Translations under genes and position numbers: made by a program | In this document: positions 1 through 6,053 of the stretch, in pieces | How the letters are laid out: every line of letters starts with the position of its first letter | Position numbering within the stretch: the first letter of the stretch is position 1 | Origin: Anaerolineales bacterium | GTDB taxonomy: Bacteria > Chloroflexota > Anaerolineae > Promineifilales > Promineifilaceae | NCBI GenBank assembly: GCA_020432595.1 | Contig: JAGQGA010000358.1 | Location: 1 to 6,053 of the forward strand | Reading direction: 5' to 3' | Length of the DNA: 6,053 nucleotides | The notes under the pieces: generated by a model | What the model saw: the letters and a program-made list of their open reading frames with translations, nothing else | Told to the model about the DNA's origin: nothing | The model's database searches: none

Positions 1-6
1 TGGCAC

Positions 7-35
7 TTGACAAACTAATTATATTAGTTTATAAA
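7..35 (+). promoter_or_regulatory. Sigma70-type promoter of the MBL-TetR operon
   Basis: A perfect -35 hexamer TTGACA (7-12) is followed after 17 bp by TATAAA (30-35), one mismatch from the consensus -10. Transcription would start near 42, giving a leader of about 27 nt before the ATG at 69. Two palindromes overlap or abut the promoter (see the operator entries), so repression by steric block is likely. No activity data can be read from the sequence. Confidence 0.8.
12..30. promoter_or_regulatory. Operator palindrome 1 (probable TetR-family site)
   Basis: Perfect inverted repeat: AAACTAAT (12-19), spacer TAT, ATTAGTTT (23-30). It fills the spacer between the -35 and -10 hexamers and overlaps the edge of each. 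A TetR-family gene is the second gene of the operon, and such regulators typically bind short palindromes in their own promoter. Assigning this site to that protein is inference. Confidence 0.75.
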
Positions 36-51
36 CTAATTATATTAGTAA
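33..51. promoter_or_regulatory. Operator palindrome 2, a direct repeat of palindrome 1
   Basis: AAACTAAT (33-40), TAT, ATTAGTAA (44-51). The 17 bases at 12-28 recur exactly at 33-49, a period of 21 bp or about two helical turns. The inner six bases of each half-site pair perfectly, while the outer pair is degenerate here. It covers the -10 element and the predicted start site. Two regulator dimers could therefore sit side by side on the same DNA face. Confidence 0.7.
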
Positions 52-68
52 TTGTTTGGAGGCTACAG

Positions 69-755
69 ATGAAGGTAACGGCAATTGGTGAGCATTTGAT
101 TCAACTGACGCGGTTGGGGGCGTTTAATTGTTATTTGGTGCGAGAGGCAGACGGGTTAACCCTGGTGGATACGGGTTTAGCGGGGAGTGCAAATGGGATA
201 TTGGCGGCTGCGCAGCAATTGGGACAGCCGATCAAACGTATTACGCTGACTCACGCACATGGCGATCATGTGGGGTCGTTGGATGTACTGGCGAATAGGC
301 TGCCGGGTGTAGAGTTGGTTTATGGGGCGAGAACGGCCGTTTTTCTCGCTGGCAATCTCACCCTCCACGCCGACGAACCGCAGGCCAAGCTACGCGGCGG
401 CTTTGTGGCCTCGTCCACCCAGGCCACGCGGCTGGTGGCGGACGGCGACAGGGTGGGGTCGCTGCGCGTGGTGGCGGCTCCCGGCCACACGCCCGACCAG
501 ATTGCTTTTTGGGATAGTCGTGATGGGACGTTGATAGCGGGAGATGCTTTTCAGACCAAGGCGGGAATCGCCGTAGCGGGGCAGATACGCTGGCTGTTTC
601 CGTTTCCGGCTTTGGCGACGTGGCATAAGGAAACGGCCGTTTCCACCGCCCAAAAGCTGCTTGCCCTCAACCCAACCCGGCTGGCCGTCGGCCACGGCCC
701 GGTGCTGGAAAACCCCGGCGCAGCGATGGCGGCAGCGATTGAGGCGGCAAGGTGA
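69..755 (+). CDS. MBL-fold metallo-hydrolase
   Basis: A 228-aa protein of the metallo-beta-lactamase superfamily (glyoxalase II-like hydrolases), predicted soluble and cytoplasmic. The zinc motif HAHGDH is at residues 62-67 (H62, H64, D66, H67). Further ligands fit H140 in PGHT, D159 in AGD and H209 in GHG, so all expected metal positions are present and the enzyme should be active. VDTGL near residue 35 is the usual early beta-strand motif. The ATG at 69 has a good Shine-Dalgarno TGGAGG (57-62) six bases upstream. It is the first gene of an operon with a TetR-family regulator 10 nt downstream, under a promoter covered by two palindromes. This suggests expression is induced by a small molecule, possibly the substrate or a relative. 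The superfamily is too broad to name the substrate (thioester, lactone, phosphodiester or other). Confidence 0.9.
   Translation: MKVTAIGEHLIQLTRLGAFNCYLVREADGLTLVDTGLAGSANGILAAAQQLGQPIKRITLTHAHGDHVGSLDVLANRLPGVELVYGARTAVFLAGNLTLHADEPQAKLRGGFVASSTQATRLVADGDRVGSLRVVAAPGHTPDQIAFWDSRDGTLIAGDAFQTKAGIAVAGQIRWLFPFPALATWHKETAVSTAQKLLALNPTRLAVGHGPVLENPGAAMAAAIEAAR
629..644. repeat. Longest copy of the dispersed palindrome, 16 bp
   Basis: GGAAACGGCCGTTTCC is a perfect 16-bp palindrome inside the MBL hydrolase gene, encoding Glu-Thr-Ala-Val-Ser. A 14-bp version, GAAACGGCCGTTTC, occurs at 5556-5569 in the kinase gene on the other coding strand. The symmetry therefore sometimes extends beyond the 10-bp core. 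Confidence 0.85.
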
Positions 756-765
756 GGCGTTGCAT

Positions 766-1332
766 ATGGCAAAAAGCAGGCGATTGAACAAGCAAATTGT
801 GGTGGAAACGGCCGTTTTGCTGGCAAACAGCAGCGGCAGCTGGCAGACATTGACGTTGACCGAGCTGGCGACGGTGCTGGATGTGCGGGTGCCGTCGCTT
901 TACAACCATGTGCAGGGGCAGGAAGGGCTGCGGCGGGAGTTGGCACTGTATGGATTGAAGGCGTTGTTAACGGCCGTTCGTCACGCCGCCATTGCCAAGG
1001 TGGGGCAGGAGGCATTGGTCGCCATTGCCCATGCCTACCGCGCCTTTGCCCAAGCCAACCCCGGCATTTACGCATTGACGCTGCAAGCTCCAGCGTCTGA
1101 CGACAATGAGTTACAGCAGCTTTCGTCTGAGCTTGTAGCACTGATAGCACTGCTGTTGAACAGCTTTAGCCTGACAGGCGACGCAGCCTTGCACGCCATT
1201 CGCGGGCTGCGGAGCTTGCTCCACGGCTTTGTCTCGCTGGAAATGGGCGGTGGCTTTGGTCTGCCGCTCGATTTGGACGAAAGTTTTCGGCAGATGGTGA
1301 TGGTTTATCTACAGGGGTTGGCGACGGGCTAA
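766..1332 (+). CDS. TetR/AcrR-family transcriptional regulator with WHG-type C-terminal domain
   Basis: A 188-aa one-component repressor. The N-terminal helix-turn-helix is clear at about residues 29-48 (TLTELATVLDVRVPSLYNHV), matching the TetR signature that ends in LYNHV/LYYHF. The C-terminal region around 148-174 (LLHGFVSLEMGGGFGL followed by DESF) matches the WHG/TetR_C_33 ligand domain. The reading frame stays open upstream to 661, but the ATG at 766 is preferred. It follows the hydrolase stop by 10 nt, has AAGGTGAG at 749-756, and yields the normal TetR N-terminus just before the HTH. It is co-transcribed with the MBL hydrolase and probably represses the shared promoter through the palindromes at 12-51. 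The ligand is unknown. The WHG assignment is from recalled motif similarity. Confidence 0.9.
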   Translation: MAKSRRLNKQIVVETAVLLANSSGSWQTLTLTELATVLDVRVPSLYNHVQGQEGLRRELALYGLKALLTAVRHAAIAKVGQEALVAIAHAYRAFAQANPGIYALTLQAPASDDNELQQLSSELVALIALLLNSFSLTGDAALHAIRGLRSLLHGFVSLEMGGGFGLPLDLDESFRQMVMVYLQGLATG

Positions 1333-1344
1333 ATCGGGTTTGTT

Positions 1345-1372
1345 TTGCAAAGCTTCACAACTTCTACATAAT
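1345..1372 (+). promoter_or_regulatory. Candidate promoter for the DUF4405 gene pair
   Basis: TTGCAA (1345-1350) and CATAAT (1367-1372) are separated by 16 bp in the 90-nt gap after the TetR gene. Each hexamer departs somewhat from consensus. I see no clear terminator between the TetR stop and this site, so read-through from upstream remains possible. Confidence 0.45.
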
Positions 1373-1422
1373 ATTGCCGTATCATGCACGCAAATTGATT
1401 CAAGGAGCATGGAAACAACAAC

Positions 1423-1941
1423 ATGGCAACAACGGTGGTGACGGAGACGCAGAAAAAGCGGGGGCTGAGCGAGACAGTTAAAAATTATTGGCTCGATATT
1501 TTTCTCTTTTTTGCTTTTATCATTGACATGAACACCCATTTTACCGGCATTTCGATTCATGAATGGCTGGGAATTGGGTTTGGTATTGCCCTGATTTATC
1601 ATCTCATGCTGCATTGGCAGTGGATAACGGCCGTTACTCAGCGGCTGCTCAAAAAGCTGCCAGCCCAGCAGCGGTTCCGCTATCTCATTGATATTTTGTT
1701 GTTTATTGATATGGTCATTGTCATTGTGACGGGGCTGTGGATTTCGGAAGTGGCAATGGCGCAGTTGGGGCTGTCGGCACAGCGCAGCTTTTTGTGGCGG
1801 CAATTGCACCACAGCACCTCCAACCTAGTTATCTTTTTGGTGGGGCTGCATTTGGCACTAGATTGGAAATGGATTGTGGCGCATACCAAACGCTATATCA
1901 CCGCACCTTTGGCAAAATTGGCTGGGAGAAAAACCGCATGA
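1423..1941 (+). CDS. DUF4405 family four-helix membrane protein, possible b-type cytochrome
   Basis: A 172-aa integral membrane protein. Four hydrophobic helices are visible at about 23-42, 47-66, 87-107 and 130-151, with a short charged N-terminus. It resembles the DUF4405 family, which shares the look of cytochrome b561/ferric-reductase membrane anchors. Helix 2 carries H46 and H60, and helix 4 carries H129/H130 and H143. The 14-residue spacing in both helices is the pattern used by di-haem cytochromes b, so haem binding and transmembrane electron transfer are plausible but inferred. H39, H64 and H154 are also present. The start at 1423 is the only ATG of this frame after the stop at 1396-1398. 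Its AAGGAG (1402-1407) lies 15 nt away, unusually far. The stop overlaps the next ATG (ATGA), so the two proteins are probably translationally coupled partners. Confidence 0.8.
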   Translation: MATTVVTETQKKRGLSETVKNYWLDIFLFFAFIIDMNTHFTGISIHEWLGIGFGIALIYHLMLHWQWITAVTQRLLKKLPAQQRFRYLIDILLFIDMVIVIVTGLWISEVAMAQLGLSAQRSFLWRQLHHSTSNLVIFLVGLHLALDWKWIVAHTKRYITAPLAKLAGRKTA

Positions 1942-2273
1942 GCAGTATTAAACAGATTGTGATTATTTTGCTGGCGGCACTGGTTGTGACTGGGGCACTG
2001 TATGGATATGGGCAGATGAGCGGGGCGGCGGCACAAAACGGCCGTTTTGGTGAGTTTGAACAACGCGGCGATTTTGGGGGGCGTGGTGAATTTGACGCCG
2101 GTCGCCCACCCCGTGGCGAAGGAGATCGTGGGCTTGTTCCATTTAACGTGCGCGGCATCCTCGGGTTTGGGCAAACGCTTATTCCCATCGCCCTGATCAT
2201 CATCGTGGTTGCCCTAATTAACAAAGCCAGCAGCACCAGTCGCCGCAACCCGGTTAAACCCGCCCAAGAGTAA
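1938..2273 (+). CDS. Small two-helix membrane protein with Gly/Arg-rich loop, function unknown
   Basis: A 111-aa protein that I do not recognise. A hydrophobic segment at about 5-25 could be an uncleaved signal anchor, and a second lies at 79-95. Between them is a polar stretch of about 50 residues rich in Gly, Arg, Phe and acidic residues (RGDFGGRGEFDAGRPPRGEG), with no cysteine or histidine. Both termini would then be on the same side of the membrane. The frame is open upstream to 1737, but the ATG at 1938 is preferred. It overlaps the DUF4405 stop by 4 bp, has GGGAG at 1924-1928, and places the hydrophobic segment at the N-terminus. The overlap suggests it is an accessory subunit of the upstream membrane protein. 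It is the last gene before a strong terminator. Confidence 0.75.
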   Translation: MSSIKQIVIILLAALVVTGALYGYGQMSGAAAQNGRFGEFEQRGDFGGRGEFDAGRPPRGEGDRGLVPFNVRGILGFGQTLIPIALIIIVVALINKASSTSRRNPVKPAQE

Positions 2274-2297
2274 CGTCGTGTAGAAAACAAATTTGAT

Positions 2298-2340
2298 AAA
2301 GGGCATACAGAGGCAAAAGCTCTGTGTGCCCTTTTATTTT
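2298..2340 (+). terminator. Rho-independent terminator after the DUF4405 pair
   Basis: Stem arms GGGCATACAGAG (2301-2312) and CTCTGTGTGCCC (2320-2331) form 12 pairs, one of them G-U, around a 7-nt loop. The T-rich tract TTTTATTTT (2332-2340) follows. An A run just before the stem (2298-2300) could pair with the first Ts. It begins 24 nt after the stop of the small membrane protein gene and separates that unit from the PPOX gene. Confidence 0.93.
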
Positions 2341-2385
2341 GGGTTAAAATACACGGTAAGAAGTCCCAATTGGAGGTCTGTAGAT

Positions 2386-2754
2386 ATGAGTTTGGCTGAG
2401 CTAGGCAACGAAACGTATGTTTCGCTGGAGACATTTCGCAAAAACGGAACAGGGGTTAAAACACCGGTGTGGGTGACAAGCGAAAATGGCCGCCTGTATG
2501 TGGTGACAGAAGCGAACGCTTGGAAAGTGAAGCGCATCAATAACAATAGCCAGGTGCGGCTGGCAAAAAGTGATGCGAGAGGTAATGTTCAGGGCGAGTG
2601 GATGGATGCTCAGGCGCGTGTGCTAACCCACGCGGAGGCATTGATGGCGCAAACGCGGCGCGGCAATACCAAATATGGGTTGCTGTACCGCCTGTTGTCG
2701 CTAATGGGGCGGCTGCGGGGCAGCAACCGGGTGGTCATTGAAATTTTTGCTTAG
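2386..2754 (+). CDS. PPOX-class protein, probable F420-dependent enzyme (Rv2061 family)
   Basis: A 122-aa single-domain split-barrel protein of the pyridoxamine-phosphate-oxidase-like superfamily, close in pattern to the Rv2061-type F420-binding group. Visible family hallmarks are ETFRKNGTGVKTPVW (15-29), LYVVT (37-41), KVKRI (47-51), VRLAKSDARG (57-66) and the C-terminal KYGLLYRLL (96-104). Such proteins bind F420 or flavin at a homodimer interface and reduce small molecules. The actual cofactor and substrate cannot be read here. The frame is open from 2293, but that start lies before the terminator hairpin. The ATG at 2386 has a strong GGAGGT (2372-2377) eight bases upstream and gives the normal family length. 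A possible -10 TAAAAT (2345-2350) lies just after the terminator, with no convincing -35. It appears monocistronic, with no regulator of its own. It contains no copy of the AACGGCCGTT repeat. Confidence 0.85.
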   Translation: MSLAELGNETYVSLETFRKNGTGVKTPVWVTSENGRLYVVTEANAWKVKRINNNSQVRLAKSDARGNVQGEWMDAQARVLTHAEALMAQTRRGNTKYGLLYRLLSLMGRLRGSNRVVIEIFA

Positions 2755-2772
2755 AACCCATCAATTTTCCCC

Positions 2773-2803
2773 TTGACTCTGACGTAACGTCATACTTTAT
2801 ACT
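2773..2803 (+). promoter_or_regulatory. MerR-type promoter with 19-bp spacer
   Basis: TTGACT (2773-2778) and TATACT (2798-2803) are near-consensus hexamers separated by 19 bp. That over-long spacer is the hallmark of promoters activated by DNA distortion through MerR-family regulators. The spacer holds a palindrome (see the next entry), and the MerR gene itself begins 92 nt downstream. Autoactivation upon ligand binding is the expected mode. The predicted leader is about 85 nt. Confidence 0.88.
2780..2792. promoter_or_regulatory. MerR operator palindrome
   Basis: TGACGT, central A, ACGTCA is a perfect inverted repeat of 6-bp arms lying between the -35 and -10 hexamers. This is the position occupied by MerR-family dimers. 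Outside the core only scattered further symmetry is visible (T2778 with A2794, A2776 with T2796). Confidence 0.85.
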
Positions 2804-2894
2804 TCCCCTACAGTAAAAAACAAGCAGATAACGTGCCTCAGTACCGGCGGTAGAAGTCGGTATTGAGCCATGCTTTGCTTGAAGGAGGGTGTTG

Positions 2895-3683
2895 ATGACC
2901 AAGCTGTATCGGATTGCCCAGTTTGCCCAATTGGCGGGGGTGACGGTGCGGACGTTGCAATATTATGACCGAATGGGGCTGCTGCGTCCGTCGGCGACAA
3001 CGGAGGCGAATTATCGGCTGTATACAACGGCCGATTTGCTGAAGCTGCAGCAGATTTTGACGCTGAAGTGGATGGGGTTTAGCTTGAGCGAGATTGGCGC
3101 GATTTTGTCGCCGCCGGGATATGTGCTGGGGCGGTCGCTGATGATGCAAAAAACGGCCGTTGATCGTCAAATTGCGCGGCTGCAAGAGGCATCGGCGGCG
3201 CTGGAGCAGGCCATTACGGCTGTGGAGGCAGCCGGAACGGAGTCGGTGAGCATTGAGACTATTCAGACGATCTTGCGGGGCATTGCCGAAACGCCGGATA
3301 TGAACTGGGCAAAGGGGTATTTTGGCGAAGCAAGCTGGACGGCCGTTCGTACACGGGGTTTGCAATACAGCCAGGCCGACTTTGCCGCCATCGCGCAGAC
3401 GTGGCGGAAACTGCATGACAGCTTTGCCACTGTGCGCCATTTGCCGCCAGATGACCCGGCCGTGCAGCAGCTTGCGGCGCAAATGGATGATTTGATTGCT
3501 AGTTTTACGGGTGGGGATGTGGCAGTGGAAGCCAGCTTGCGCCACCTGCATGAGGATGCGGAAAACGGCCGTTTACCCCCCGAACAGATGCCCTATACCC
3601 CGTTTGCCGGGGTGGATGTTGAGCAGCAGCAGTTTACGCAACAAGCATTGGCGATTTATCGTCAGACAAAAGGTGAGAAATGA
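2895..3683 (+). CDS. MerR-family transcriptional activator with TipAS-like ligand-binding domain
   Basis: A 262-aa regulator. The winged HTH is at residues 5-42 (YRIAQFAQLAGVTVRTLQYY then DRMGLLRPS), followed by the second DNA-contact region RLYTTADLLKLQQI. A dimerisation coiled coil runs about 83-112. Residues about 140-255 match the TipAS antibiotic-recognition domain, including YFGEASW, a W..LHDSFATV helix and LIASFTGGD. Such proteins (TipAL, SkgA and relatives) activate defence or efflux genes on binding drugs or cell-stress ligands. The protein has no cysteine, so covalent capture of thiopeptides as in TipAL cannot occur. A GTG (2889) and a TTG (2892) lie in frame upstream, but AGGAGG (2883-2888) is six bases from the ATG at 2895, which decides the start. 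The stop overlaps the next gene's ATG by 4 bp, so the peptidase is its likely regulated target. Confidence 0.92.
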   Translation: MTKLYRIAQFAQLAGVTVRTLQYYDRMGLLRPSATTEANYRLYTTADLLKLQQILTLKWMGFSLSEIGAILSPPGYVLGRSLMMQKTAVDRQIARLQEASAALEQAITAVEAAGTESVSIETIQTILRGIAETPDMNWAKGYFGEASWTAVRTRGLQYSQADFAAIAQTWRKLHDSFATVRHLPPDDPAVQQLAAQMDDLIASFTGGDVAVEASLRHLHEDAENGRLPPEQMPYTPFAGVDVEQQQFTQQALAIYRQTKGEK

Positions 3684-4570
3684 AAGCAAATTGGATACCA
3701 ACAAACGAATATTATGATGAAGTGATGGCGGCGGCGGACGCAAACGGCCGTTTACAAACTTACCAAGAACGATTTATCGTCCCGTGGCAGCAGATGATGC
3801 AGATGGTTGGGGTGGGGGGTGATGATGTGTTGGCTGGGGCACGGGCGTGGGCGTGGTTGCTGCCAGAGCAGTTAACGGCCGTTCACCCTACCCTGCAAGC
3901 TCTTAAAACCGCTCAGGCCTGGGAGACAGGCGCAGCCGCCCTTGCCAAAGGGGTGGCGCAATTTGCGCCCCACAGCCAGCAAATTGGCATGGACAGCGTG
4001 GAAGGGTGGCTCATTGCCGCCGATCCTGCCCGTGCCGACCCCATTAACCGGGGCTACACCGGCGCCATTGACTTTATGGCTCCTCGGCTGGTGGTGCAAT
4101 ACGACACCCCCACCACTACCAACTTGCGTCAACTGCCCGGTGCCATTGTTCACGAACTCAACCATTTGGTGCGCTTGCGATTGTTCCCCTGGAACATCAT
4201 GACCACCAGCGTGGCCGACTACATCATCCACGAAGGGCTAGCCGAATCGTTTGCTGTGTCGCTTTTTGGCGAAGAGGTGCTGGGTTACTATGTGGCTGAA
4301 TGCCGCGAAGCTGATCTCGCTGCCGCCAAATCGCTGGTTCAGGCGGGGCTAGACAAGACAGGCTTTAACGTCATTCGCAGCTATATTTTTGGCGACACGC
4401 TGGCGGCTAAATGGGGGTTTGAAAAAACCGGGATGCCTGACTTTGGCGGCTATGCCGTTGGCTACCACATTGTTCAGGCGTATTTGCGGCAAACGGGTAA
4501 AACGGCCACGGATGCCACGTTTGTGGCGGCGCAGGAAATTATCGCGCAGTCTGGCTTTTTGGAGGCTTGA
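3680..4570 (+). CDS. DUF2268-family putative zinc metallopeptidase
   Basis: A 296-aa protein resembling the DUF2268 group (Bacillus YjaZ type), predicted zinc-dependent proteases. The catalytic motif is HELNH at residues 158-162 (H158 and H162 as ligands, E159 as general base). HEGLAE follows at 184-189, and E189 is a good candidate for the third zinc ligand, as in gluzincins. No signal peptide or membrane helix is visible, so a cytoplasmic location is likely. A C-terminal GGYAVGYHIVQAYL segment (256-269) also fits the family. It starts inside the stop codon of the TipAS-type MerR gene (ATGA), with AGGTGAG just upstream, so expression should follow ligand sensing by that regulator. The substrate is unknown; processing a regulator or degrading a peptide toxin are possibilities only. 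Confidence 0.87.
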   Translation: MKANWIPTNEYYDEVMAAADANGRLQTYQERFIVPWQQMMQMVGVGGDDVLAGARAWAWLLPEQLTAVHPTLQALKTAQAWETGAAALAKGVAQFAPHSQQIGMDSVEGWLIAADPARADPINRGYTGAIDFMAPRLVVQYDTPTTTNLRQLPGAIVHELNHLVRLRLFPWNIMTTSVADYIIHEGLAESFAVSLFGEEVLGYYVAECREADLAAAKSLVQAGLDKTGFNVIRSYIFGDTLAAKWGFEKTGMPDFGGYAVGYHIVQAYLRQTGKTATDATFVAAQEIIAQSGFLEA

Positions 4571-4575
4571 TTTGG

Positions 4576-4608
4576 GTGGCAAGCTGGGTTGTTCACCCAG
4601 CTTGCCAC
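4576..4608. terminator. Perfect 14-bp hairpin between convergent genes
   Basis: Arms GTGGCAAGCTGGGT (4576-4589) and ACCCAGCTTGCCAC (4595-4608) pair perfectly around the 5-nt loop TGTTC. It starts 6 nt after the peptidase stop and ends 10 nt before the end of the minus-strand kinase gene, so it could serve both. Neither strand has a proper U tract after the stem (TTGCTATC on plus, CCAAATC on minus). It may act as a pause, a weak or bidirectional terminator, or a 3'-end-protecting hairpin. Confidence 0.7.
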
Positions 4609-4618
4609 TTGCTATCTG

Positions 4619-6053
4619 TTACTCAATGGTAAAGGGGTAGGCAACAACGGCCGTTTCCAGCCCTTCCCCCCGTGCCTGTACATACAGCACATGGTCGCCC
4701 ACTTCCAGCCCCGACAAAATCAAGGACGCACCTTGCCCCACACCCTCAACACCTTCATCTAGTGCCTCTGAATCTACGCTATAGGCATAGGTATAGAGCG
4801 CGTTGGGGTCGGAGTCAATGGCAACCATGATAAAAACAACGGGGTAGCTCTGGGTGGCGAAGTCATAGGACTGCTGGCTATAGTTAAACACAATGTCGTC
4901 TACCGTGTAATCAAAGCTATAGATTTGGCCGGGGGTGCCGCTACCGTCTACATAGCGAATATAGAGCGTGTGATCCCCCTTTTCATAGGGAATGGGGCCT
5001 ATGGTGGTGTTAGCAATGCCCGAATTGCCTGGCTCCGTGCGCCCATTGTTAATAGATGGTTCTGGGTCATCCACGCTAAACAAAATATGGGCAATGTCTG
5101 AGTTGGGCAAGCCAAGGGTAACAATTAGCCCTTCGTAGTTGTAGATGGTAAGAAATAGGGGATCAAAGTCTGGGATGCTAGAGTCTGAGGGGACATCTGT
5201 GGGCGTATCGCTACTGCTGCTGACGGCAAAGGCGGCACTGGTAGGATTGGCTTCCTCGCCACTGCTGGCGCTTCCAGAGGCACCCAGACTGGCCGAGCCG
5301 CTGCCGCTATTGGTGCTACTGTTATTGGAAAGAGAGATGCTTGACGAGGCCACAACTGGCGTGCGGCTGGCAGGAGGCTCATCGTTACCGCCACCGCGCA
5401 GGGCAAACAGGGCGACCATTGCCACAATGGCAACAATTGCTACGCCGCCGATGAGCCACAACGGCCGTTTCTTTTCCCCCTCTTTTCGCTCTTTTTCCAC
5501 CGGCGCGGCCGCCTGGCGCGTCGTGGTGGCCGTTTTGATGGGAAGCTGGTCGGGAGAAACGGCCGTTTCCACCACTGTCCTGTCATCAACCGACAATATA
5601 GGCGATTTGGCCGTCGCTGTTCCCGAATCCGAGCCAATCAGTTCACGAATGGCGGCGACAAGATCAACGGCCGTTTGAAACCGCGCCGACTTATCCTTCG
5701 CCAACGCCCGGTTGATCACCCGAATCAACCCCGGCGGCACATCGGCCCGCAGTTCGCGCACATCGGGAATCGGCGCATTCAAATGCTTCATCATCAGCGT
5801 TGCCGCCGAATCCGCCTCAAAAGGCGAACGCCCCGTCACCATCTCAAACAGCACCACCCCCAGCGCATAAACATCAGTGCGAGCATCTACCTTCTCCCCC
5901 ATCACCTGCTCTGGAGCCATGTAGCGAGCCGTGCCAAGCACCATGCCGGTAGCCGTGTGTTGCGCGGCATCATCCATCTTGGCAATGCCAAAATCCATCA
6001 AAATCGCCTCATCGCGCCGGTTAAACATGATGTTGGCTGGCTTAATGTCCCGA
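4619..6053 (-). CDS. Transmembrane Ser/Thr protein kinase (PknB-like), 5' end outside window
   Basis: A partial gene: 477 residues are visible and the N-lobe (P-loop, catalytic Lys) lies beyond the window. Counting from the first complete codon, the catalytic loop RDIKPAN is at 1-7, DFG at 20-22, GTARYMAPE at 40-48 and TDVYALGVVLFEMVTG at 59-74. The RD and DFG residues are intact, so an active Hanks-type kinase is expected. The domain ends near 138. A juxtamembrane segment, basic just before the membrane, leads to one transmembrane helix at about 198-218. A Ser/Thr/Asn/Gly-rich linker spans about 225-290. The outer C-terminus is not PASTA. It holds two similar beta-rich repeats (313-384 and 409-477), each with an SVD strand and a GDHxLY strand, probably a sensor or surface-binding module. 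An internal ATG at 6028 lies inside the catalytic loop and is not the start. The gene is convergent with the peptidase gene. Confidence 0.93.
   Translation of the reverse strand, partial: RDIKPANIMFNRRDEAILMDFGIAKMDDAAQHTATGMVLGTARYMAPEQVMGEKVDARTDVYALGVVLFEMVTGRSPFEADSAATLMMKHLNAPIPDVRELRADVPPGLIRVINRALAKDKSARFQTAVDLVAAIRELIGSDSGTATAKSPILSVDDRTVVETAVSPDQLPIKTATTTRQAAAPVEKERKEGEKKRPLWLIGGVAIVAIVAMVALFALRGGGNDEPPASRTPVVASSSISLSNNSSTNSGSGSASLGASGSASSGEEANPTSAAFAVSSSSDTPTDVPSDSSIPDFDPLFLTIYNYEGLIVTLGLPNSDIAHILFSVDDPEPSINNGRTEPGNSGIANTTIGPIPYEKGDHTLYIRYVDGSGTPGQIYSFDYTVDDIVFNYSQQSYDFATQSYPVVFIMVAIDSDPNALYTYAYSVDSEALDEGVEGVGQGASLILSGLEVGDHVLYVQARGEGLETAVVAYPFTIE
4622..5116 (-). repeat. Duplicated beta-rich repeat in the kinase outer domain
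   Basis: Two protein-level repeats of about 70 residues are encoded at 5116-4901 and 4828-4622. The first contains ILFSVDDPEPS and later GDHTLYIRYVDGSG; the second contains YAYSVDSEALDEG and later GDHVLYVQARGEG. Each ends in a Y/F-x-F strand (YSFDYTVD and AYPFTIE). The layout recalls Ig-like or fibronectin-like bacterial surface modules. The repeat is clear in protein, not in DNA, so the duplication is old. Confidence 0.6.

Follow-up and report, generated by a model that had tools for sequence, protein, structure and literature searches.

A palindromic octamer iterated through the genomes of one Anaerolineae family, with dialects and converging G-rich flanks

Motif copies and genes in the window

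The window, a 6,053-nucleotide stretch (contig JAGQGA010000358.1, positions 1 to 6,053) of an Anaerolineales bacterium, carries 14 exact copies of the palindromic decamer AACGGCCGTT and two one-mismatch copies, at 3026 and 3338. The octamer ACGGCCGT occurs 15 times, with A and T directly outside it in 14 of the 15, and the hexamer CGGCCG 18 times. In 200 dinucleotide shuffles of the window, sites with at most one mismatch averaged 0.29 and numbered 3 at most; none of the shuffles reached 16. These data confirm the copies and coordinates of the original prediction, which described a palindrome resembling the cyanobacterial highly iterated palindrome 1 (HIP1) in six unrelated genes on both strands. 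Both strands are indeed used, and the predicted genes that carry copies number seven, coordinates being compared by eye. In relatives of the window, the octamer proved to be iterated genome-wide within a single family, to be replaced by other palindromes in some family members, and to lie between G-rich strands that converge on it. The seven genes are as follows.

69..755, plus strand: MBL-fold hydrolase gene, 2 copies
766..1332, plus strand: TetR_C_33 regulator gene, 2 copies
1423..1941, plus strand: DUF4405 / Ni_hydr_CYTB membrane protein gene (cytochrome b561-like), 1 copy
1938..2273, plus strand: small open reading frame (ORF) without a Pfam match, 1 copy
2889..3683, plus strand: MerR/TipAS regulator gene, 3 octamers and 1 near copy
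3680..4570, plus strand: DUF2268 Zn-protease gene, 2 copies
4619..6052, minus strand: Ser/Thr kinase gene with its 5' end beyond the window, 4 copies

The copies, which are palindromic and listed without strand, encode mainly Thr-Ala-Val (TAV) or Asn-Gly-Arg (NGR).

332..341: AACGGCCGTT, RTAV, MBL-fold gene; 4 of the 12 orthologues aligned carry the motif in this codon column
632..641: AACGGCCGTT, ETAV, MBL-fold gene; common to G014 and G007 (2 of 12 orthologues)
807..816: AACGGCCGTT, ETAV, TetR gene; all 12 other aligned orthologues without motif and without TAV
969..978: AACGGCCGTT, LTAV, TetR gene; all 12 other aligned orthologues without motif and without TAV
1626..1635: AACGGCCGTT, ITAV, DUF4405/cytochrome b561-like gene
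2037..2046: AACGGCCGTT, NGR
3026..3035: near copy AACGGCCGAT, CGGCCG core intact
3152..3161: AACGGCCGTT, KTAV, MerR/TipAS gene
3338..3347: GACGGCCGTT, complete ACGGCCGT octamer, one side short of the decamer
3564..3573: AACGGCCGTT, ENGR
3743..3752: AACGGCCGTT, ANGR, DUF2268 gene
3874..3883: AACGGCCGTT, LTAV, DUF2268 gene
4646..4655: AACGGCCGTT, ETAV, minus-strand kinase gene
5460..5469: AACGGCCGTT, KRP, minus-strand kinase gene
5558..5567: AACGGCCGTT, ETAV, kinase gene
5666..5675: AACGGCCGTT, QTAV, kinase gene

Iteration, dialects and conservation

Genome-wide counts were obtained from relatives of the window, whose own membership of the family we infer from the motif and from DNA matches. Such matches were present in 28 of the 30 motif-rich genomes searched, with at most 10 candidate places scored per genome; the long ones, mostly 67–75% identical, were scattered over many family members. 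When 84,980 species genomes were scanned for pairs of decamers spaced 21–22 bases apart, 47 stretches were returned. Thirty-nine of these were titled Anaerolineae or Chloroflexota and came from 14 metagenome-assembled genomes (MAGs), each of which contained 396 to 5,060 decamers versus 1–29 copies of the reversed word. Among the other matched genomes, those of Pseudarthrobacter, Limobrevibacterium, one of three Paenibacillus and Actinocatenispora contained 6–12 decamers, and a cyanobacterial MAG contained 37.

Across 396 genomes of the class Anaerolineae, more than 300 decamers were found in 20, 79–149 in three and 0–29 in 373. All 23 genomes with 79 or more decamers belong to one family, of which 52 genomes were examined, and in that family ACGGCCGT reaches 15,176 copies per genome. 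No similar motif was evident outside the family in 14 class samples (6 of the 20 samples, shorter than 7 kb, were skipped). As a separate observation, CGCGCG/GCGCGC is over-represented in some Anaerolineae that do not belong to the family (L308, L311, L318 and L320, from G058, G080, G137 and G173), as in G173 with 110 occurrences versus 6.1 expected in 15 kb.

ACGGCCGT outnumbers every other octamer in the 400 kb of G001 that were counted (n = 681, one per 587 bp). The decamer (n = 164) exceeded a 4th-order Markov expectation (9.5) and did not exceed the 7th- and 8th-order expectations (182 and 180). The octamer is therefore the unit in G001, and the decamer was rejected as the repeated unit there because its count is already explained once the octamer is given. 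As a correction to the original prediction, most of the family has the octamer as its unit, and the decamer is a sub-dialect. In the relatives, the motif is neither near its Markov expectation nor limited to one neighbourhood. The fraction of octamers extended to the decamer ranges from ~5% in G169 to 84% in G011. With 14 of 15, the window resembles G011 and G008 (82%), which are sisters in a tree of RpoB sequences. The under-representation that marks restriction avoidance was not seen; the motif is strongly over-represented.

The 52 family genomes comprise 38 that bear a motif and 14 in which it is weak or absent. Thirty carry ACGGCCGT at about 420–2,100 copies per Mb; two of these, G169 and G006, bear further CGGCCG forms too. 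In G407, G113 and G198, ACGGCCGT numbers only 83–198 and KCGGCCGM 8,144–12,431. Samples resolved these as dialects, TCGGCCGA in G407 and G113 and GCGGCCGC in G198. In the 4.0 Mb of G410, 14 copies of ACGGCCGT compare with 3,665 of TGCCGGCA, a word that was noticed because it served as the reversed control. The G410 sample (L121–L124, L147–L149) is nearly devoid of CGGCCG (7 in 52 kb, where ~36 would be expected), a pattern resembling a purge of the former core. In G420, G367 and G220, the hexamer CGGCCG is over-used 10–18-fold without a clear outer-base preference; G421 was placed with them by counts only, both of its sampled pieces being masked. Eight of the weak or motif-less genomes were sampled (G086, G414, G305, G417, G419, G409, G350 and G322) and six were not, and these small samples could conceal a further dialect.

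Of 32 genomes searched, 28 yielded an RpoB sequence, and a midpoint-rooted tree was built from 27 of these, the G005 fragment being excluded. In this tree, which has low support at several nodes, G169 is sister to G407 in a clade that also contains G113 and G198, such that T, G and mixed forms of the motif are adjacent. A large main clade of 16 genomes carries ACGGCCGT in all members except G350.

In G001, 621 of the 681 copies lie inside ORFs, which make up 89% of the sequence, with 297, 235 and 89 copies in the three frames. The coefficients of variation of the gaps were 1.06 and 0.93 on two contigs, and 0.81–1.23 over seven samples, indicating random spacing. Non-coding density in the seven samples was approximately equal to coding density in G001 and slightly above it in G113. 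Among 256 palindromes in G001, the octamer has the second lowest ratio of inner one-base neighbours (0.47 of expectation) and the highest ratio of outer one-base neighbours (2.4). The depletion of inner neighbours is not taken to prove directed conversion, since constraint on the amino acids encoded at TAV sites would have the same effect.

Conservation was evaluated at ten loci around one region, where 26 of 45 pairs from eight genomes had more than 1.5 kb aligned; the pairs are not mutually independent. Retention was calculated by dividing the number of shared copies by the average count of the pair, and the control was the simple identity of octamers with six G+C. Retention was higher for the motif (0.67–0.93) than for the control octamers (0.03–0.64) in all 26 pairs, so copies are conserved in orthologues. 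For example, G405 and G361, which are 76% identical, share 15 copies out of 22 and 18, with a control value of 0.16. Codon alignments of the window's MBL and TetR genes with those of 12 other family members contained 100 and 40 column-coincident copy pairs, respectively, versus 0.73 and 0.24 at random, shared ancestry being included. The two TetR copies of the window sit where none of the 12 orthologues has Thr-Ala-Val.

The motif also occurs on viral contigs, a scan of which matched 21 stretches. The dense stretches L009, L017 and L021 encode portal, capsid/protease, terminase or tape-measure proteins and carry 22–31 octamers per 13–15 kb, a density that is biased upward because the stretches were chosen by a close decamer pair. 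A further stretch labelled viral, L002, has 49 octamers in 13.2 kb together with ParA-like and FtsK-like genes, and is possibly a plasmid or an integrative element.

Tripeptide content and GC-skewed flanks

The motif distorts the proteome. In G001, 305 Thr-Ala-Val tripeptides were observed versus 53.9 expected, and 297 of them are encoded by ACGGCCGT, where codon usage predicts 17%. The corresponding figures are 116 versus 14.4 in G405 (116 of 116 motif-encoded), 90 versus 15.7 in G361 (88 of 90) and 18 versus 5.3 in G011 (17 of 18). The excess thus reaches 8-fold, and 97–100% is motif-encoded in the three large samples. The window itself has 12 versus 1.2 expected, 11 of the 12 motif-encoded. 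Permutations of TAV were mostly at 0.4–1.7 of expectation, with a maximum of 2.3 (VTA in G405).

The inflated tripeptides follow the dialect, TAV/NGR in one and Ser-Ala-Glu (SAE) in another. Four genomes sampled from other octamer dialects showed no TAV excess. In the TCGGCCGA genomes, TAV was at 0.65–0.76 and Ser-Ala-Glu was 6.8- and 4.6-fold enriched; in the GCGGCCGC genome, Ala-Ala-Ala was 3.8-fold enriched. A DNA-level signal can thus impose amino-acid composition, to the point that nearly all TAV in three sampled genomes is motif. HIP1 behaved similarly in samples of two cyanobacterial genomes (L327–L331): AIA occurred 46 times versus 14.6 expected (3.1-fold), 44 of the 46 being HIP1-encoded, and GDR was 4.9-fold enriched. 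In these samples the permutation IAA was also 2.1-fold enriched.

The flanks of the motif are skewed over a much greater distance than the palindrome itself. GC skew is given below for 3–12 / 13–24 / 25–42 bp from the octamer on the strand reading toward the site. It was symmetric, at 0.37/0.21/0.11 in G001 (679 sites), 0.29/0.21/0.08 in G405, 0.14/0.11/0.06 in G361, 0.13/0.15/0.08 in G113, 0.30/0.24/0.16 in G407 and 0.21/0.24/0.18 in G198. At the different core TGCCGGCA in G410 it was 0.26/0.19/0.06. In all seven octamer-dialect genomes sampled, therefore, the G-rich strand points at the resident octamer and the skew fades by ~40 bp. The window gave 0.39/0.28/0.10, a value matched by none of 5,000 random position sets.

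Control hexamers in the family samples gave -0.08 to +0.09. The one exception, GCCGGC in G410, forms part of the resident motif there. Where an octamer dialect is in use, CGGCCG outside the dialect word gave -0.05 to +0.13 at 3–12 bp (samples of at least 12), and mixed-outer CGGCCG in G001 gave 0.10/0.03/0.00. At 102 HIP1 sites in the two cyanobacterial samples there was no skew (-0.04/0.04/0.01), although these sites have short flank preferences of their own.

Within the family, a codon-phase-corrected G excess occurs at -3 and -4 on both sides in three ACGGCCGT genomes; the G peak lies elsewhere in other dialects, at -7 in G407 and -9 in G113. In G001 the skew reflects G replacing C, with A and T little altered. 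Copies outside any ORF of 80 amino acids are also skewed near the core (0.37/0.10/0.04, 35 sites). In four genomes, net skew was positive at 81–86% of sites and on both sides at 50–58%, and the two flanks were nearly independent (r of -0.09 to 0.14). An extended hairpin was rejected, the flanks having no palindromic extension. Analysis of helical AT periodicity around the site revealed only the 3-bp coding period. Flank positions 3–6 diverge slightly less than background.

Interpretation and candidate enzymes

As described in PMC4390886, HIP1 (GCGATCGC) is a palindromic octamer at ~500–2500 copies per Mb, with palindromic decamer extensions in some genomes, other palindromes replacing it in some lineages, and, on our reading, an unsettled function. 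The Anaerolineae motif shares these sequence features, as well as the proteome distortion, and differs from HIP1 in sequence (ACGGCCGT), in phylum and in the ~40-bp symmetric G-rich flanks. The parallel drawn originally with HIP1, a palindrome across unrelated genes, is supported: the motif is iterated genome-wide, spaced at random, present in and outside genes, conserved in orthologues and replaced by dialects. Three broad features of such palindromes were found: genome-wide over-representation, dispersal without regular spacing, and alternate palindromes in relatives. The motif is therefore a highly iterated palindrome in the broad sense and, by sequence, is not HIP1 proper.

Our favoured reading, in which we place about even confidence, is that the palindrome forms the core of a recognition signal of this type that is peculiar to one Anaerolineae family, recurs throughout the genome and is read dyad-symmetrically by a strand-polar machine. 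A putative sequence-specific protein or machine, presumably a single reader, would contact DNA symmetrically and far beyond the core. Sites that fit it would be gained and retained through selection or biased repair or conversion, despite amino-acid changes, and a shift in its specificity would rewrite a genome into a new dialect. The flank polarity would reflect strand-polar DNA processing, such as repair, recombination or translocation with a logic like that of Chi or the FtsK-orienting polar sequences (KOPS), rather than gene regulation. The convergence of G-rich strands points to a strand-polar machine, and the existence of dialects to a reader that evolves.

A G-rich strand that is polar with respect to a processing machine also characterises Chi and KOPS or the SpoIIIE recognition sequences (SRS). 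The known sites are short non-palindromic words, whereas here G-rich strands converge on a palindrome at thousands of places. More tentatively, and with doubt prevailing, the motif may represent a new class of bidirectional site that combines a palindromic core, converging G-rich strands and a fast-evolving reader. Each change in the specificity of that reader would then recast thousands of sites and, with them, the tripeptides of the proteome. The Chloroflexota system is independent of the cyanobacterial one and has four octamer dialects within a single family; it offers natural replicates for a reader search and for a methyltransferase test. The symmetric skew is a clue that HIP1 did not provide in the two samples examined.

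Several results weigh against the favoured reading. Hexamer-dialect genomes are little skewed, except G169 (0.12/0.13/0.05), and the skew at viral loci is weak (0.12/0.01/0.04 for the 12 motif-dense stretches of 21, nine sparse ones being omitted). Flank divergence is faster at positions 1–2 and approximately at background beyond ~6 bp, so the wide skew is accompanied by no visible site-by-site purifying selection. Motif-less orthologues are still skewed at >85% (0.22) and 75–85% identity (0.20), and little skewed below 75% (0.06); because close motif-less orthologues stay skewed, cause and consequence are not separated. Non-coding density is clearly below coding density in five of the seven samples. 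An Ala-Ala-Ala excess is also seen, at a weaker level, without the GCGGCCGC word (2.4 in G410 and 2.7 in G086), and the GCGGCCGC case is correspondingly weak. No reader protein was found, and a PF01555 (m4C/m6A-family) enzyme shared by the motif-bearing genomes is possible.

Of the four mechanisms in the original prediction, a chromosome-organising protein, repair or uptake may each apply. Maintenance of the motif by a methyltransferase mark is likewise possible, but in the form that Elhai proposed for HIP1 we consider it somewhat unlikely. In that model, a cytosine enzyme acts on CGGCCG or GGCC, methylation-directed mismatch repair ratchets the flanks toward the palindrome, and enzyme turnover produces dialects. 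Consistent with it, the CGGCCG core is common to three octamer dialects and the hexamer form, and deviations fall mainly at the outer bases, as PMC4390886 reports for HIP1. A GGCC core is also the target of M.Ssp6803II of Synechocystis, whose loss of GGm4CC methylation affects replication and repair; that target is a frequent tetramer, and the abstract of the study (PMC6560206) does not link it with an iterated octamer.

PF01555 matches exceeded the cut-off in 41 of the 52 family genomes, which by inference from E-values includes 31 of the 38 motif-bearing ones. It also exceeded the cut-off in ~10 of the 14 members in which the motif is weak or absent, and so does not track the motif. The matches in G010, G413 and G013 were no better than 9.5e-10. 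G005, G220, G377 and G408 had neither PF00145 nor DndC and no PF01555 match better than E 6e-5 (none, or 6e-5 to 5e-4), yet ComEC was present in each. A few absences prove little, because RpoB, needed by every cell, was missed in 4 of 32 drafts; ComEC was likewise not found in 5 of 52. However, the absence of PF00145 from 16 of the 38 motif-bearing genomes exceeds what such incompleteness explains.

DndC exceeded the cut-off in 5 of 52 genomes, which does not fit a Dnd phosphorothioate site, and an m5C or Dnd enzyme common to all motif-bearing genomes is unlikely. The top-scoring PF01555 protein from each of 30 genomes, in one case read over 30 amino acids only, was compared, as were 37 PF00145 proteins. 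The resulting groups depend on the threshold: the largest had 9 members at 38% identity and E 1e-20, and at 30% identity 26 of 30 and 34 of 37 were linked. Moreover, the model leaves the polar flanks unexplained, and HIP1 has no such flanks in the samples studied here.

A DNA-uptake signal, a palindromic analogue of the Neisseria DNA uptake sequence (DUS) or Haemophilus uptake signal sequence (USS) that spreads through preferential uptake and recombination, is improbable. The motif resembles DUS and USS in its thousands of copies, its dialects around a shared core and its flank preferences past that core; its density of ~1 per 0.5–2.4 kb also speaks for such a signal, and ComEC occurs in 47 of the 52 family genomes. 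However, ComEC is found equally in the motif-poor or motif-less G322, G350, G409 and G086. Tailed-phage contigs carry the word at host-like density, though they were chosen by a close pair, and the motif is palindromic, unlike known DUS and USS.

Equally improbable, in our view, is a neutral mutational or repair-patch bias, in which repair at the word makes and keeps it and skews composition outward without function. Random spacing, gains that change amino acids, mobile elements that follow the host and a skew that decays with distance are all as such a bias predicts. Nevertheless, the replacement of C by G in G001 with little change in A or T is not a deamination or oxidation signature, and the flanks are not divergence hot spots past position 2. 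Finally, an origin by chance, from the usage of codons or amino acids, or through duplication of the locality can be dismissed. The only point in its favour is that TAV and NGR are frequent where the motif is frequent. Against it, 14 Chloroflexota genomes contain 396–5,060 decamers versus 1–29 reversed words, every frame as well as sequence beyond ORFs carries copies, and the four genomes sampled from other octamer dialects have no TAV excess.

Among the literature matches listed, none linked HIP terms with Chloroflexi, ACGGCCGT with Chloroflex or Promineifilaceae with palindromes. Passages of a paper on methylation in sludge bacteria (PMC12772301) contain nothing on the Anaerolineae motif. 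AACGGCCGTT itself was matched in four papers, among them a Thermus regulator study with tables that contain it within a 14-mer.

The window also contains a repeat-rich, partly inverted stretch at positions 6–49, upstream of the MBL–TetR pair. It matches relatives at 87–93% identity, on both strands in several, where the genes are only ~67–71% identical; it is a possible TetR operator. The MBL-fold hydrolase and TetR genes adjoin in at least 12 family genomes.

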